The position numbers and the translations under genes were made by a program. From Brachybacterium huguangmaarense (GTDB taxonomy: Bacteria; Actinomycetota; Actinomycetes; Actinomycetales; Dermabacteraceae): a stretch of DNA of 64,000 bases. The DNA lies in assembly GCF_025725725.1 (NCBI RefSeq), contig NZ_CP107020.1, forward strand, positions 2,542,001-2,606,000. Direction: 5' to 3'. Below, in pieces: positions 4,601 through 32,413 of the stretch. The notes below the pieces were generated by a model. The model was not told the DNA's origin. It did not search any database and saw only the letters and a list, made by a program, of their open reading frames with translations. Within the stretch, counting starts at the first letter, position 1. Each line of letters begins with the position of its first letter.

Positions 4601-4794
4601 CCCTGTTCCTGTGGAAGGGACGCGAGTCCGACATCCTCCCGCTCGACCGCACCGAGCTGCAGGCCGCGGCGCGCGTGGTCCAGGGGGAGACGGGCACGGC
4701 GGCGGGCATCGAGGAGACGTATCTGCGCGTGACACGTCACGCGCGCGGCATCGCCGAGGAGCTCCTGTTCGGTGGCGGGGAGTCGGGCGCGTAG
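1690..4794 (+). CDS. glnE: Bifunctional glutamine synthetase adenylyltransferase/deadenylylase
   Basis: A 1034-residue GlnE that adds AMP to, and removes it from, the regulatory tyrosine of GlnA1 according to nitrogen status. It has the two nucleotidyltransferase domains of the family, each with a metal-binding SDxD motif: S231-D232-V-D234 in the N-terminal deadenylylase half and S764-D765-A-D767 in the C-terminal adenylylase half. Each is followed by its own GlnD-type helical region (RRVIDHIPRGEVERNLKLG and the later SRHLKLGRGSMTDVEW). The start at 1690 lies 4 bases after glnA2, so the two are translated from one mRNA. A second in-frame ATG at 1702 is possible. The substrate, glnA1, lies about 3 kb downstream on the other strand. 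Confidence 0.93.
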   Translation: MVGQMSTGALARAGFGDTDRAQRFLGDRALRGLDAAGAEAIGHTADADEALLGLLRVAEAARADQEAGIDVDALLGSVGEQGSAGSRLVTVLGSSVALGDFLARHPERLEALGDRTGETMPREQVRAHLLRAVGADPEADPPVSALDGREARDALRVAYHERLLQIAVADLTAERAIDVQPDVSRALADLADASLETALAIARAGVEGHEGVRLAILAMGKTGARELNYISDVDVIYVAEPRTAEGAADGETSGDEDALIAVAAALGREIARVCADRTAEGSLWQVDANLRPEGKDGPLARTLDSCRRYYRQWAKSWEFQALLKARPAAGDLELGQDFVDMVSPQVWQASTRDSFVEDSRAMRRRVIDHIPRGEVERNLKLGPGGLRDVEFTVQLLQMVHGRHDESIRARGTLPALAALRDGGYIGRRPAAELDEAYRFLRTVEHRLQLHRMRRTHVLPTAPADIRRLARSLRLAPEDFVFVYERTRRRVRHLHEEIFYRPLLVTASTLSDGQVRLSPEAAASRLAAIGYRDPRRALGHIEALTEGISRRAAIQRQLLPSLLEWFADGIDPDMGLIAFRRLSEQVGSAHWYMGMLRDSGVAAQRLTRVLADSRYVGQQLEQIPEAVRWLARDDELRPLDRDELLSEFDAVIRRVDTAQAATDVLRRTRRRELLRVAMAHLVHLIDPPAVAAALTDIAEAVLRAGVRVAAYTVLVDERAARGTGEEAEGASQEVPRTATALESLGIDLAVIAFGSFGAKEMGYSSDADVQFVVDDRGAGDRAGELGVKVASAVQKILNAPSAGADMKVSADLRPEGRNGVLARTVESWTDYYAKSAETWEKQALVRARVVVGSDDVAARLTAVMDSHRYPRGGLAVRERRYIVRMKARVESGRLPRGADPSRHLKLGRGSMTDVEWVAQLLVMDHGSACARLRGTTGTLALLGILADEGLLGRGQADDLAEAWSLAWGLRRALFLWKGRESDILPLDRTELQAAARVVQGETGTAAGIEETYLRVTRHARGIAEELLFGGGESGA

Positions 4795-4867
4795 CCTGGG
4801 GGAGCTGCCCGCCTCACAAGGCCCTGCCCTGCCCTGCTCCGCCCCGCCCTGCCGTCTCCGAGGATCC

Positions 4868-5785
4868 ATGACCACACCCAAGCTCAGCGCGGACACCCCC
4901 CGCGGCCGCATGTACCGCCTCGAGCCGGACGGCCCTCTCGTCTATCCGTCGATCACGACGGTCGCCGGGATGCGCGCCAAGGACCATCTGCAGGGCTGGT
5001 ACGCCGCGATGGCGTCCAAGCGGGCACTCGAGATGTACTCGTGGCTCGATCGCAACCCCGCCCGGGCCCAGACGGAGATCTCGCGCGTGACGCGAGACCG
5101 GTGGGGAAGTCAGAAGCGCATCGCGGCCGCCGCCGAGGAGCACACCCGGCGCGCCTCCGACTTCGGCACCCTCGTGCACGCGGTGTGCGAGGACTGGGAG
5201 CGTAGCGGGCAGCGCCCGGACCGCGCGGCGGTCGCCGCACACGTCGAGGCCATGCGCACGGGCTCCGGCGCGTTCGCGACCGAGCCCTCCCTCGACGACC
5301 TGCTCCAGCGCGCAGGGGTCCGCCTCGACGGCTTCGACGAGTTCCTGCAGGACTTCTCCCCGGAGTTCGTGGAGATCGAGCAGACCGTGGTCAACCACAC
5401 CGTCGGCTACGCCGGCACGACCGACTGCATCGTGAGGATCGGCAACACCGTGCTGTCGGGGGACATCAAGACCTCCAAGAAGGTGCGCGGCGACTACGCG
5501 CTGCAGGGCGTGGCCGTGGTCAACGCCGAGCAGCTCCTCGACGACGACGGTGCGGTGCGCGAGGCCCCCGAGATGACGGGCGCGTTCATCATCCACCTGC
5601 CGGAGGCCGGCGGCTACCAGGTGGTCCCCCTGAAGACCACGCGGGCCGAGTTCGACGTGTTCCGGGCCCTCAAGCAGGTGTGGGCCTTCGAGGCGGATGC
5701 GTGCGCCCTCGAGGCCACGGGCGACCCCAAGTCGCTCCTGCTGAGCCTGCTCAAGGCCAAGGGCGGTCTCGACGCGCTCGGATGA
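4868..5785 (+). CDS. PD-(D/E)XK (RecB-like) nuclease family protein
   Basis: A 305-residue protein with the order of conserved residues found in RecB/Cas4-like PD-(D/E)XK nucleases: H104 in a GTLVHAV helix, D186 in YAGTTD, then D199-I-K201 in LSGDIKTSK. These would bind a divalent metal and cleave DNA. There is no helicase domain and no Cas4-type cysteine cluster, so it is a stand-alone nuclease domain resembling phage and mobile-element nucleases. The start at 4868 is chosen because GAGG lies about 6 bases upstream; an in-frame start at 4772 would overlap glnE and adds low-complexity sequence. The neighbours give no functional clue. The target is unknown. Confidence 0.65.
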   Translation: MTTPKLSADTPRGRMYRLEPDGPLVYPSITTVAGMRAKDHLQGWYAAMASKRALEMYSWLDRNPARAQTEISRVTRDRWGSQKRIAAAAEEHTRRASDFGTLVHAVCEDWERSGQRPDRAAVAAHVEAMRTGSGAFATEPSLDDLLQRAGVRLDGFDEFLQDFSPEFVEIEQTVVNHTVGYAGTTDCIVRIGNTVLSGDIKTSKKVRGDYALQGVAVVNAEQLLDDDGAVREAPEMTGAFIIHLPEAGGYQVVPLKTTRAEFDVFRALKQVWAFEADACALEATGDPKSLLLSLLKAKGGLDALG

Positions 5786-5884
5786 GCCCGGCGACCTGAC
5801 CATCCAGCTGCGACGAGTTCCAGACACTTCTCAGAGTCTGTACAGTTGACGGCTTGTGCTCGACGAACCCCGAGGAGATCCGGC

Positions 5885-6427
5885 ATGACCACGCCCAAGA
5901 ACGACGTTGACGCCTGGGCTGCCGCCCTCGGGCAAGGCCTCACGGTGCCCTTCAACTTCTCCCGCGGCAAGACCGTGTTCATGATCGTCGTCTCGCTGAT
6001 ATTCGTCCTGATCGGCCTGGCGATGGCAGGTGGGGACAGCATCCTGTGGAAGGTCATCGGGTGGCTCGCTGTCGTCCTCTTCGCCATGAGCGTCGTCGTC
6101 CAGATCCGTCGACTGTTCCGCCGTGAACCTGCCATCGAGGTCTCGCCCGAGGGAGTCACGATGACGACGGCGAAGGCCGGCACGATCCCGTGGTCGCACA
6201 TCCTCGACGTGCGCGGCATCAAGCAGAGCTCGAACATGTTCATCGAACTCGTCGTGACCACGGAGGAAGCTGACCGCCAGGTCGCATCCGGCCTCTCAGT
6301 CGGAGAGCGCGAGCTCGAGGACGGGACCTCGCAGAAGGTCCTGTGGGCTCCGAACGGAGTTGCCGTCTCCAAGCCCGCCCTGTGCTCGTGGCTCCACCAG
6401 GAATCGATGGCACGTCGCGTTGCGTGA
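5885..6427 (+). CDS. Small membrane protein with PH-like domain (STM3941-like)
   Basis: The 180-residue product has two adjacent membrane segments (about residues 22-40 and 47-67). A cytoplasmic beta-rich domain follows, starting IEVSPEGVTM and containing TIPWSHILDVRGI, the pattern of small bacterial PH-like proteins of the STM3941 type (GxIxWxDI then a C-terminal helix after PNGVAVSKPALCSW). The start at 5885 follows a GAGGAG ribosome-binding site. Base composition is less GC-rich than that of the flanking genes, as in the desaturase next door. Function is unknown; a role at the membrane is likely. Confidence 0.6.
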   Translation: MTTPKNDVDAWAAALGQGLTVPFNFSRGKTVFMIVVSLIFVLIGLAMAGGDSILWKVIGWLAVVLFAMSVVVQIRRLFRREPAIEVSPEGVTMTTAKAGTIPWSHILDVRGIKQSSNMFIELVVTTEEADRQVASGLSVGERELEDGTSQKVLWAPNGVAVSKPALCSWLHQESMARRVA

Positions 6428-6491
6428 GCTCGAGCTGTTCAGGACCTCGCTCTCGGAGGCTTGAGCGTTCCCCCCGCGTGAACGGTATGGC

Positions 6492-7595
6492 TCATGAAGC
6501 TCCCCGGTATTGGGCCAGGACGGGGCATTCGAAGGGATCCCGTGCAGCGAGACCGACGTCATTGAGGTAGCGGACCACGATGAGGTAGGAGCGGTGGATC
6601 GGCTCTTCGACGTACGGGACGGCCAGTCGCTCGCACTGCGCGCGAACGATCTCTCGGGCCTTCGCGAGGTGGGGGCGTGGCATCGAGGGGAAGAGATGAT
6701 GCTCGATCTGGTAGTTCAAGCCTCCGTAGAGCAGGGTGGCCCACCAGCCACCCCTGATGTTCCGGGAGGTGCGGACCTGCTTGGAAAAGAAGTCGAGGCG
6801 CGCTCCGGGGGCGATGACCGGCATCCCCTTGTGGTTCGGGGCGAAGGAGGCGCCCATGCACACCCCGAAGACAGCGAGCTGCACACCGAGGAACGCGAAT
6901 GCCATCCCGAGCGGCAACAGGATGAACACCGGCACGACGAGCGCAGCGAAGCGCCCCGTGATCAGTGCCAGCTCAGTGAAACGATGAGTTGTCCTCTTCG
7001 GTGAGAACAGGTGCCGGAAGCTGTGGCCGTGGAGGTTGAGGCCTTCGAGCGTGAGGAGCGGAAAGAACAACCACCCCTGGCGTGAGGTGATCCAACGGCG
7101 CAGCCCGCGGGCCTGGGCGGCGTCAGCAGCCACGAAGGAGACGGTGTCGACAGCAATGTCCGGGTCCTTGCCGACCTGGTTCGGATTGCCGTGGTGGCGG
7201 GAGTGCTTGGAGTCCCACCAGCTGAAGCTGAGTCCGACGACGCCCGCGAGCAGCCGCGCAAGACGTGTGTTCGCCTTCCCGCTCGAAAGGACTTGTCTGT
7301 GGCCTGCCTCATGGGCGATGAACGCGACCTGGGTGAAGACGATGCCGAGGACGGCGGCGATTACGAGCTGGAACCAACTTGTGCCGAGCACGACGAATGC
7401 CGTCACGCACCCGGTGAAGATCAAAGCCAATGCAGCGCCGACGAGCACGTAGTACCAGCGTGCCCGGTCCAGCAGGCCTTCGGCTTTGACAGCATGGGAC
7501 ACGTCGACGAATGCTCTGAGCTGCGGCGGGAAGGAGTCGGCGTCTACGTATACCTGGCGCTGATTCATGAGTGCTGTGGGGTCAAGGGTCGCCAT
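6492..7595 (-). CDS. Membrane fatty-acid (acyl-CoA/acyl-lipid) desaturase
   Basis: A 367-residue membrane di-iron desaturase that puts a double bond into a fatty-acyl chain, using oxygen and electrons from a ferredoxin or reductase. The three histidine boxes are complete: H95-EAG-H99, H131-SR-H134-H135 and Q296-IE-H299-H300, the last with the Q-for-H change seen in front-end and acyl-CoA desaturases such as the DesA3 type. Two hydrophobic pairs (about residues 48-95 and 215-255) span the membrane. The start at 7595 follows a GAAGGCGG ribosome-binding site; an in-frame start 102 bases upstream would add a poor N terminus. No reductase gene is adjacent. Lower GC and the neighbouring recombinase scar suggest acquisition by transfer. 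Confidence 0.88.
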   Translation of the reverse strand: MATLDPTALMNQRQVYVDADSFPPQLRAFVDVSHAVKAEGLLDRARWYYVLVGAALALIFTGCVTAFVVLGTSWFQLVIAAVLGIVFTQVAFIAHEAGHRQVLSSGKANTRLARLLAGVVGLSFSWWDSKHSRHHGNPNQVGKDPDIAVDTVSFVAADAAQARGLRRWITSRQGWLFFPLLTLEGLNLHGHSFRHLFSPKRTTHRFTELALITGRFAALVVPVFILLPLGMAFAFLGVQLAVFGVCMGASFAPNHKGMPVIAPGARLDFFSKQVRTSRNIRGGWWATLLYGGLNYQIEHHLFPSMPRPHLAKAREIVRAQCERLAVPYVEEPIHRSYLIVVRYLNDVGLAARDPFECPVLAQYRGAS

Positions 7596-7739
7596 CACGG
7601 GCCGCCTTCGGTGTGGCGCGTGAACCGGCGCCGAGTCTGCCGAGGGGCTCCCCAACACCTCAACCATAGCCCCGAGGGCTGGTAGAACCATGTGCACCTA
7701 CCGGGAGATGCATGATCGCATGCGGCCACGAGTGATCGG

Positions 7740-7820
7740 GTATGGCACCGGTACGCGTCATCGCTGATCCGCTCCGGCCTGTCCGCGAACGAGGTCCAGG
7801 CGCGGCTGTGCCACGGAGGA
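7740..7820 (+). pseudogene. Fragment of a tyrosine recombinase/integrase C terminus
   Basis: In one frame the DNA reads WHRYASSLIRSGLSANEVQA followed by RLCHG. This closely matches the active-site helix region of actinobacterial phage-type integrases (HxxR/HxxA-SLLIRxGxSVKxVQxRLGH). An in-frame stop lies at 7713-7715 and the catalytic domain before and after is gone. After CHG the frame continues without recognisable similarity. I read it as the decayed remnant of an integrase from a lost mobile element. Only about 26 codons support it. Confidence 0.55.
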
Positions 7821-7866
7821 GTCCGCACGATCCGCTGTCAGGGACGCTCCCGCGGATCGTGCGGAC
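7821..7866. terminator. 15-bp perfect inverted repeat, candidate glnA1 terminator
   Basis: GTCCGCACGATCCGC at 7821-7835 is repeated in perfect inverse at 7852-7866 around a 16-base loop. It lies about 50 bases beyond the glnA1 stop codon and could end glnA1 transcription. It also overlaps the integrase scar and could be a recombination-site relic. Confidence 0.5.
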
Positions 7867-7870
7867 ATCA

Positions 7871-7892
7871 TGCGGACACCGGGGCGTCCGCA
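7871..7892. repeat. Second inverted repeat, TGCGGAC / GTCCGCA
   Basis: A 7-bp perfect inverted repeat with an 8-base loop starts 4 bases after the larger repeat and reuses the same GTCCGCA sequence. It could form a second terminator hairpin for glnA1, whose stop lies 25 bases away. Confidence 0.4.
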
Positions 7893-7916
7893 GCCGCTGT
7901 GACCTGGATGGGACGA

Positions 7917-9347
7917 TCAGATGTCGTAGTACAGCTCGAACTCGTGGGGGTGAGGACGGAAGCGGAAGGGATCGATCTCCTTGGTCCGCTTGTAGTCGAT
8001 CCACGTCTCGATCAGGTCCTCGGGGAACACGTCGCCCTCGGTGAGGTAGTCGTGGTCGGCCTCGAGGGCCTCGAGCGCTTCGTCGAGCGAGGACGGGAGC
8101 TGCTTGATCTGCGCGTGCTCCTCGGGGGGCAGCTCGTACAGGTCCTTGTCGATCGGCTCGGGGGGCTCGATCCGGTTGCGGATGCCGTCGATGCCGGCCA
8201 TGAGCTGCGCCGCGAAGGACAGGTACGGGTTGGCCGAGGGGTCGGGCGCACGGAACTCGATGCGCTTGGCCTTGGGCGACGTGCCCGTCACGGGGATACG
8301 GATGCACGCCGAGCGGTTGCGGGCCGAGTAGACCATGTTGACGGGCGCCTCGAAGCCCGGCACCAGGCGCTTGAACGAGTTCACCGTCGGGTTGGTGAAC
8401 GCGACGAGCGAGGAGGCGTGCTCGATGAGGCCGCCGATGTACCAGCGGGCGGTGTCCGAGAGGCCGCCGTAGCCGCGCTCGTCGTAGAACAGCGGCTCGC
8501 CGTCCTTCCACAGGCTCTGGTGGGTGTGCATGCCCGAGCCGTTGTCGCCGAACAGGGGCTTGGGCATGAAGGTGACGGTCTTGCCGTTCTCCCACACCAC
8601 GTTCTTGACGACGTACTTGAACTTCATGACGTCGTCGGCCGCCTGCAGCAGCGTGTTGAAGCGGTAGTTGATCTCCTGCTGGCCGCCCGTGCCGACCTCG
8701 TGGTGGGCGCGCTCGACCTCGAGGCCGGTCTCGCCGAGGACCGCGCAGATCTCGTCGCGCAGGTCGGCCATCTGGTCGTTGGGAGAGACGGGGAAGTAGC
8801 CGCCCTTGACGCGGGTCTTGTAGCCGAGGTTGCCCCCGAACTCCGACTCGTCGCGTCCGGTGTTCCAGACCGCCTCGTCGGAGTCGATCTTGTAGAAGCC
8901 CTCGTTGATGCTCGTCGAGAAGCGCACGTCGTCGAAGATGTAGAACTCGGCCTCGGCGGCGAAGTTCGCGGTGTCCGCGATGCCGGTCGAGCGCATGTAC
9001 TCCTCGGCCTTGGCGGCGACGGTGCGCGGGTCGCGCGAGTACGGCTCGTCCGTGAACGGATCGACGATCGAGAAGTTGATGATGAGCGTCTTGCGCTCGC
9101 GGAACGGGTCGATGTAGGCCGTCTCGAGGTCCGGGACGAGCTTCATGTCGGACTCGTGGATCGCCTGGAAGCCACGGATCGACGAGCCGTCGAACAGCTG
9201 GCCGGTGGCGATGGCCTCCTCGTCGAACGACGCGGCCGGCACGTTGAAGTGCTGCATCACGCCGGGCAGGTCGATGAAGCGGATGTCGATGAACTCGACG
9301 TCCTCTTCCTCGATGAACTTCGCGACCTCGCTGGGATTGCTGAACAC
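7917..9347 (-). CDS. glnA1: Glutamine synthetase type I, adenylylation-regulated (GlnA1)
   Basis: The main ammonia-assimilating glutamine synthetase, 476 residues, GSI-beta type, active as a dodecamer. Visible hallmarks are [16 protein letters not shown], the AEAEFYIFD metal site, the [13 protein letters not shown] segment, [20 protein letters not shown] and the adenylylation loop [10 protein letters not shown] with Tyr404 as the AMP acceptor for GlnE. The start is GTG at 9347 after GGAGGAAGA. The upstream region carries hairpins and a TACACT -10 hexamer, suggesting a leader of roughly 110 bases. The enzyme is monocistronic, with hairpins directly downstream. Confidence 0.96.
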
Positions 9348-32295: not shown

Positions 32296-32381
32296 GTCCG
32301 GGTGGCGGAATAGGCAGACGCGCTAGCTTGAGGTGCTAGTGCCCGTATTAGGGCGTGGGGGTTCAAGTCCCCCCTCGGACA
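32296..32381 (+). tRNA. tRNA-Leu (anticodon GAG)
   Basis: An 86-base class II tRNA. The 7-bp acceptor stem pairs GTCCGGG with CTCGGAC (one G.T), and the D arm follows. The anticodon stem CTAGC/GCTAG encloses loop TTGAGGT with GAG at 32330-32332. A long variable arm (GCCC..GGGC) and T arm GGGGGTTCAAGTCCCCC complete it. CCA is not fully encoded (ACCG follows). It reads CUC and CUU. Confidence 0.95.
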
Positions 32382-32413
32382 CCGATGTGGGATCGTGGAA
32401 TGCGATTCGCACG

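Follow-up and report, generated by a model that had tools for sequence, protein, structure and literature searches.

A tyrosine-integrase remnant and probable decayed attachment end at the 3' end of glnA1 in Brachybacterium huguangmaarense

With a probability of roughly 95%, positions 7743-7943 of the 64,000-nt stretch of Brachybacterium huguangmaarense DNA analyzed here (the window) are the decayed attR left by an integrative element, one with a tyrosine integrase that has the glnA1 3' end as its target. Judged by its sequence, 7743-7902 is an inactive remnant of a tyrosine recombinase of the phage_integrase type, and it points at the end of an intact glnA1 (7917-9347, minus strand; type I glutamine synthetase, TIGR00653), which is the target gene. 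A preliminary description had proposed a tyrosine-recombinase scar at this place, with an element that integrated and decayed and left a neighboring desaturase region as cargo; the scar, the integration and the decay are borne out by an integrase remnant at its attachment site, and the desaturase region is at most candidate cargo.

The remnant consists of two plus-strand pieces. Read in the frame through 7743, the first (7743-7829) translates to DRVWHRYASSLIRSGLSANEVQARLCHGG and contains a box-II region (...WHRYASSLIRSGLSANEVQARLCHGG) in which, compared with RHYFASLLI, Trp stands in place of Arg. This is the HRYASSLIRSGLSANEVQARLCHG frame that had been flagged near 7740-7820, and the in-frame stops said to precede it lie at 7683-7685 and 7713-7715. 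The second piece (7813-7902), missed at that time, is in a shifted frame relative to the first and reads TEESARSAVRDAPADRADIMRTPGRPQPL (7813-7899) followed by a TGA stop at 7900-7902; alignment to remnants in the congeners G014 and G016 identifies it as the C-terminus of the same integrase. A profile built from 12 glnA1-adjacent integrases, with nothing from the window in it, was run over the 1045 six-frame segments of the window and placed exactly these two pieces at ranks 1 and 2, with scores of 7.0 and 7.4 bits that are each weak by themselves (iE 0.16 and 0.11), collinear and on the same strand at positions 316-344 and 356-377 (7813-7878) of its 382 positions. What survives is approximately the last sixth of the integrase. 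Comparison with the glnA1-facing integrases (H-ASATTTLNTYAHLWPDA-EES) and with the G016 remnant suggests that about 50 nt are gone between the pieces, at a scar at 7812-7818 (plus strand); the deletion removes the segment with the catalytic Tyr (TLNTYAH) and shifts the frame. The intact catalytic residues of phage_integrase-type recombinases, box-II HxxR and the tyrosine, are absent from the remnant, and because the tyrosine segment is deleted and the box-II Arg replaced by Trp it cannot be an active recombinase, in agreement with the earlier remark that no intact domain is left.

Comparison of the locus in relatives, which had been proposed as a check for an intact integrase or an empty site, turned up remnants in two congeners, intact convergent integrases outside the genus and one congener, G013, in which the stretch is missing. 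A nucleotide search with 7600-7930 against 58 genomes (the window's own included) gave a match in 13, and G014 (74% DNA identity) and G016 (70%) were the only congeners matching over approximately 7813-7930; the remaining matches were 25-49 bp long, three of them (G009, G017 and G035; query 6-62) falling in the upstream leader of the desaturase. The G016 stretch translates as an integrase end, TTTLDVYVHLWPGTDEPSRSTVQKVLADREDSMRTTGAVLTR followed by a stop, with a relative of it in G014, and by profile the two remnants (iE 2.5e-8 in G014 and 1.1e-13 in G016) cover a different portion of this integrase's end in the corresponding location. Among 396 genomes of the order, 17 were matched by the G016 tail, 15 of them outside the genus, and 12 of these 15 have long integrase ORFs (363-495 aa, stop to stop) with their 3' end toward glnA1, tail to tail with it; two more (L157 and L160) are situated next to an RNase P RNA gene, and one locus (L159) starts at a contig end and glnA1 was not seen there. 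Among named genomes, one scan returned at least 186 relatives. In the 80 best-matching loci that were kept, three of which come from one Nocardia strain, the integrase end lies within 400 bp of a convergent glnA1 in 59, the convergent glnA1 lies beyond this limit in 10 and is absent from the locus sequence compared in 11; hosts include Demequina, Cellulomonas, Arthrobacter, Geodermatophilus, Nocardia, Nocardioides, Micromonospora and Streptomyces. The window shows the same arrangement, with the remnant stop at 7900-7902 and the glnA1 stop at 7917. As a counterpoint, a family alignment at E 1e-100 matched 14 of the 396 order genomes, none of them from the window's genus. An integrase or remnant within 1.5 kb of glnA1 was found in five of 29 loci scanned, including the window, a 30th locus being too short. 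Tyrosine integrases beside glnA1 and on the same strand as it (L100 in G010, L111 in G021 and G004:C1:2369443-2369928) were set aside, being oriented opposite to the glnA1-facing family; those of G010 and G021 match the profile, the former covering nearly all of it.

Since the integrases face glnA1 and distal direct repeats of the glnA1 end occur, the glnA1 3' end is the attachment site of this family, which explains why the remnant sits there. A direct repeat of the glnA1 3' end was present 9-21 kb away, beyond the integrase, in seven of ten fetched elements of the order, the other three having no copy over the 17-40 kb searched. Within a search that reached at most 10 kb, 25 of the 69 named loci with a convergent glnA1 carried such a repeat (26 with L183, dropped because its repeat misses the core). 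The core consists of the glnA1 stop codon together with, in most cases, the final 7-9 codons, and the repeats that bound intact elements are mostly 22-34 bp long. By these direct repeats, the core remaining in the window is the glnA1 stop and last codons at 7917-7943 (minus strand; TCAGATGTCGTAGTACAGCTCGAACTC on the plus strand). An attL was looked for inside the window and not found: there is no second copy of the core, the best other match within 4701-7900 reaching 16/27 on the same strand and 17/27 on the other, so that the glnA1-side core stands alone. A tRNA attachment site was likewise rejected, the sole tRNA found in the window lying at 32296-32383.

Two further motifs connect the window to the family. 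TGCGGAC direct repeats start at 7860 and 7871, 11 bp apart (7860-7877, plus strand), and are probably arm-type sites of the integrase, and a TGACCTG box (7900-7906, plus strand) lies between the integrase end and glnA1. In the 260 bp before the glnA1 end, a GCGGAC pair with the same 11-bp spacing occurs in 50 of the 69 glnA1-facing loci, although part of this signal may be protein conservation because the repeats encode ADSLRT; TGACCTG/CAGGTCA is found within 75 bp of the glnA1 end in 36 of the 69, compared to 0.7 expected from mononucleotide shuffles. Both motifs are thus common, not universal, in family loci, and neither occurs in any of 24 loci of the genus that show no integrase signal (0/24 each). 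G014 has the box and lacks the 11-bp-spaced pair; G016 has neither motif in exact form.

Together, we infer the following sequence of events. The integrase would have recombined the attP of the element with an attB lying in the terminal codons of glnA1. Because the element brought an equivalent 3' end, it would have left glnA1 whole, with the integrase gene placed tail to tail beside it. The element would subsequently have been lost except for about the final sixth of its integrase, and the frameshifting deletion would have broken this tail and taken the catalytic tyrosine. The DNA left on the attR side would then comprise the TGACCTG box, the pair of TGCGGAC repeats and an inverted repeat within integrase codons.

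This inverted repeat, found by a stem search at 7821-7866 within former integrase codons, is perfect over 15 bp, with arms GTCCGCACGATCCGC and GCGGATCGTGCGGAC and 16 nt between them, and its simplest reading would be a role in integrase binding. In 34 of 76 integrase ORFs read from the 80 loci, which are related and hence not independent, the perfect stem within the last 50 codons exceeds that of all 20 synonymous-codon versions (about four expected), so the integrase DNA seems constrained beyond the protein sequence in many ORFs. A somewhat doubtful further proposal is that the repeat survives as a transcription terminator of glnA1, in place of the host's own. The stem is perfect despite the broken ORF and folds with z -3.5 on the glnA1-sense strand, G014 and G016 keep perfect stems of 14 and 10 bp with paired base differences, and in several integrase-free congeners a different strong stem lies 17-35 bp beyond glnA1, for which reason a post-decay stem may end glnA1 transcription. 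However, no T-run follows the stem, approximately nine congeners have stems of only 6-8 bp, which is the level of shuffles, and, since integrase ORFs commonly contain it, the repeat predates the decay, so its survival may only mean that the decay is recent. No known RNA was found within 5700-8100.

It is less probable, at perhaps one chance in four, that the whole 2.1-kb insert between exo and glnA1 is one collapsed element with two genes as its cargo. The far side of this interval is formed by a conserved neighbor, exo (4868-5785, plus strand), which encodes a PDDEXK-like protein with a weak Pfam match just below the cut-off, and within it lie genes for an STM3941-family protein (5885-6427, plus strand) and a fatty acid desaturase (6492-7598, minus strand; start codon uncertain), both candidate cargo. 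As had been described, this pair is less GC-rich than its surroundings, with a GC3 of 0.85 and 0.81, respectively, compared to 0.94-0.98 in glnA2, glnE, exo and glnA1. Such lower GC3 is that of foreign DNA, and both genes look acquired. The entire stretch is also absent from G013, the nearest among the loci compared by exo, glnE and glnA1 identity, which has an interval of 158 bp. Against a single element, no attL copy is present, and desaturase orthologues, 70-79% identical, occur in five congeners, none at glnA1, in mostly unlike surroundings (except in G017 and G035) and with no STM3941-family match within 1.5 kb; nothing thus ties the two genes to this element, and the desaturase region as cargo, the other half of the preliminary proposal, is only a possibility. 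Moreover, most congener intervals hold other genes. Desaturases are patchy in the genus, a search at E 1e-40 having found them in 22 of 38 genomes, counting the window's own, and are of two types (L043-L064), 70-79% and 45-48% identical to that of the window.

Of 20 congeners, 18 have an exo-glnA1 interval between 94 bp and 12.1 kb long, and in the other two exo was not found within the 18 kb fetched; the intervals of G031 and G013 measure 94-158 bp. Eight congeners resemble the window in interval length (approximately 1.8-2.1 kb) but have different genes there, and no ORF of the window interval is shared with any of the 18. Because the interval varies in this way, the desaturase gene and its STM3941-family neighbor may be independent arrivals, and because other genes lie there in most congeners, the interval takes up DNA without a glnA1 element. 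In the loci L097-L110, one ORF cluster, absent from the window, is shared by nine of the 18 congener intervals and by our reading would encode a sensor kinase/LuxR-type regulator pair. Several of these intervals also have an ABC exporter, which the window does not, and in two loci (L083 and L085, in G058 and G019) a small conserved ORF (MAKYLISFPSSAM...) lies between exo and glnA1, which at a guess encodes a putative YCII-like protein. The 158 bp of G013 were considered as the ancestral empty site and cannot count as such, because in nine of the 18 congeners a shared gene occupies the interval and G013 may have undergone a later loss.

The two pieces as a pair also carry the integrase assignment where single-sequence searches are weak. 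Piece 1 alone had no match in Pfam or NCBIfam and one weak PHROG family of unknown function, neither piece is named by any family library searched, and the 34-aa fragment, compared with 58 genomes, matched besides itself only at E 0.07-1. By tblastn against 50,697 phage records, piece 1 matched 61 records at E <=10, and the best 20 of these 61 matches (E 0.1-1) are all in annotated integrases. The protein search of the translated fragment that had been proposed was therefore of little help by itself, and it is the profile of glnA1-adjacent integrases that ranks the fragment first. In the region trimmed to 7690-7916, piece 1 scored 12.3 and the pair 19.7, and none of 3000 dinucleotide shuffles attained the pair score, the best reaching 6.4. 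A chance resemblance, in which the noncoding 3' region of glnA1 never held an integrase, would account for the weak single-piece scores and the missing library matches, but is extremely improbable given these shuffles, the remnants at the same place in G014 and G016 and the lack of the motif set in the 24 integrase-free genus loci.

The decayed attR at glnA1 leads to a family of site-specific integrases that is present in many actinobacterial genera and whose target, a core gene of nitrogen metabolism, is constant. In the window the integrase is the sole surviving part of the element, and we infer the type of what was lost from relatives, in which head and packaging genes are known (L179 and L244). 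In L179 (Demequina rhizosphaerae NBRC 109397; 9.6 kb, 10 ORFs scanned) the integrase, 29-32% identical to phage records among the best 12 of 21 matching, is accompanied by an HTH protein, a primase/helicase-like protein, a small terminase and a major head protein, with a weak scaffold match. L244 (10.0 kb, seven ORFs scanned besides the integrase) has a repressor-like and a primase-like protein, a large terminase, a head protease, a major head protein and head-tail proteins. This gene content fits capsid-forming satellites, and both of these intact relatives would be phage-satellite-like. Another whole element, L242 of Streptomyces fulvorobeus NBRC 15897, is 10 kb long. Element types vary, since L195 has a tail tape-measure gene instead (three ORFs scanned) and the element at glnA1 in G266 (L166-L167) is 20.6 kb long with four very large ORFs (889-1136 aa). 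More speculatively, and on balance improbably, the glnA1 3' end might be a major dock, across the Actinomycetota, for one family of capsid-forming satellites, with integrase codons that spell out both the repeat and the arm sites and a leftover repeat that serves as the host's glnA1 terminator; if true, satellites would reshape the 3' end of a gene central to nitrogen metabolism. The attB, attP and integrase provide a handle for locating satellites and their scars and a possible integration tool for actinomycetes, and make it possible to ask directly if regulatory DNA remains after such elements decay.

The element class is already known in kind, and no report of glnA or glnA1 as attB turned up in searches of the open-licence literature. 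Beside an RNase P RNA gene (Rfam RF00010), instead of glnA1, lie two integrase ends of the same order (L157 and L160, the latter only an 86-aa open frame), which resemble the present family in a C-terminus ending in ADSLRT and in GCGGACT repeats, hinting that a sister group attaches at another gene. Capsid-forming PICIs, as described in excerpts of PMC10690885, share with L179 and L244 a size of about 10 kb and a gene set that combines integrase and HTH regulator with a primase-like protein and genes for head and packaging; this likeness is one of described gene content, and the relatives here differ in belonging to Actinomycetota and, in L195, in the tape-measure gene. Tyrosine-recombinase elements that use the 3' end of conserved genes, namely tRNA genes or icd, as attB are known from excerpts of PMC10111431, and they resemble ours in direct-repeat att cores, in an element-borne end that keeps the target intact and in a junction-adjacent integrase, the target here being glnA1.
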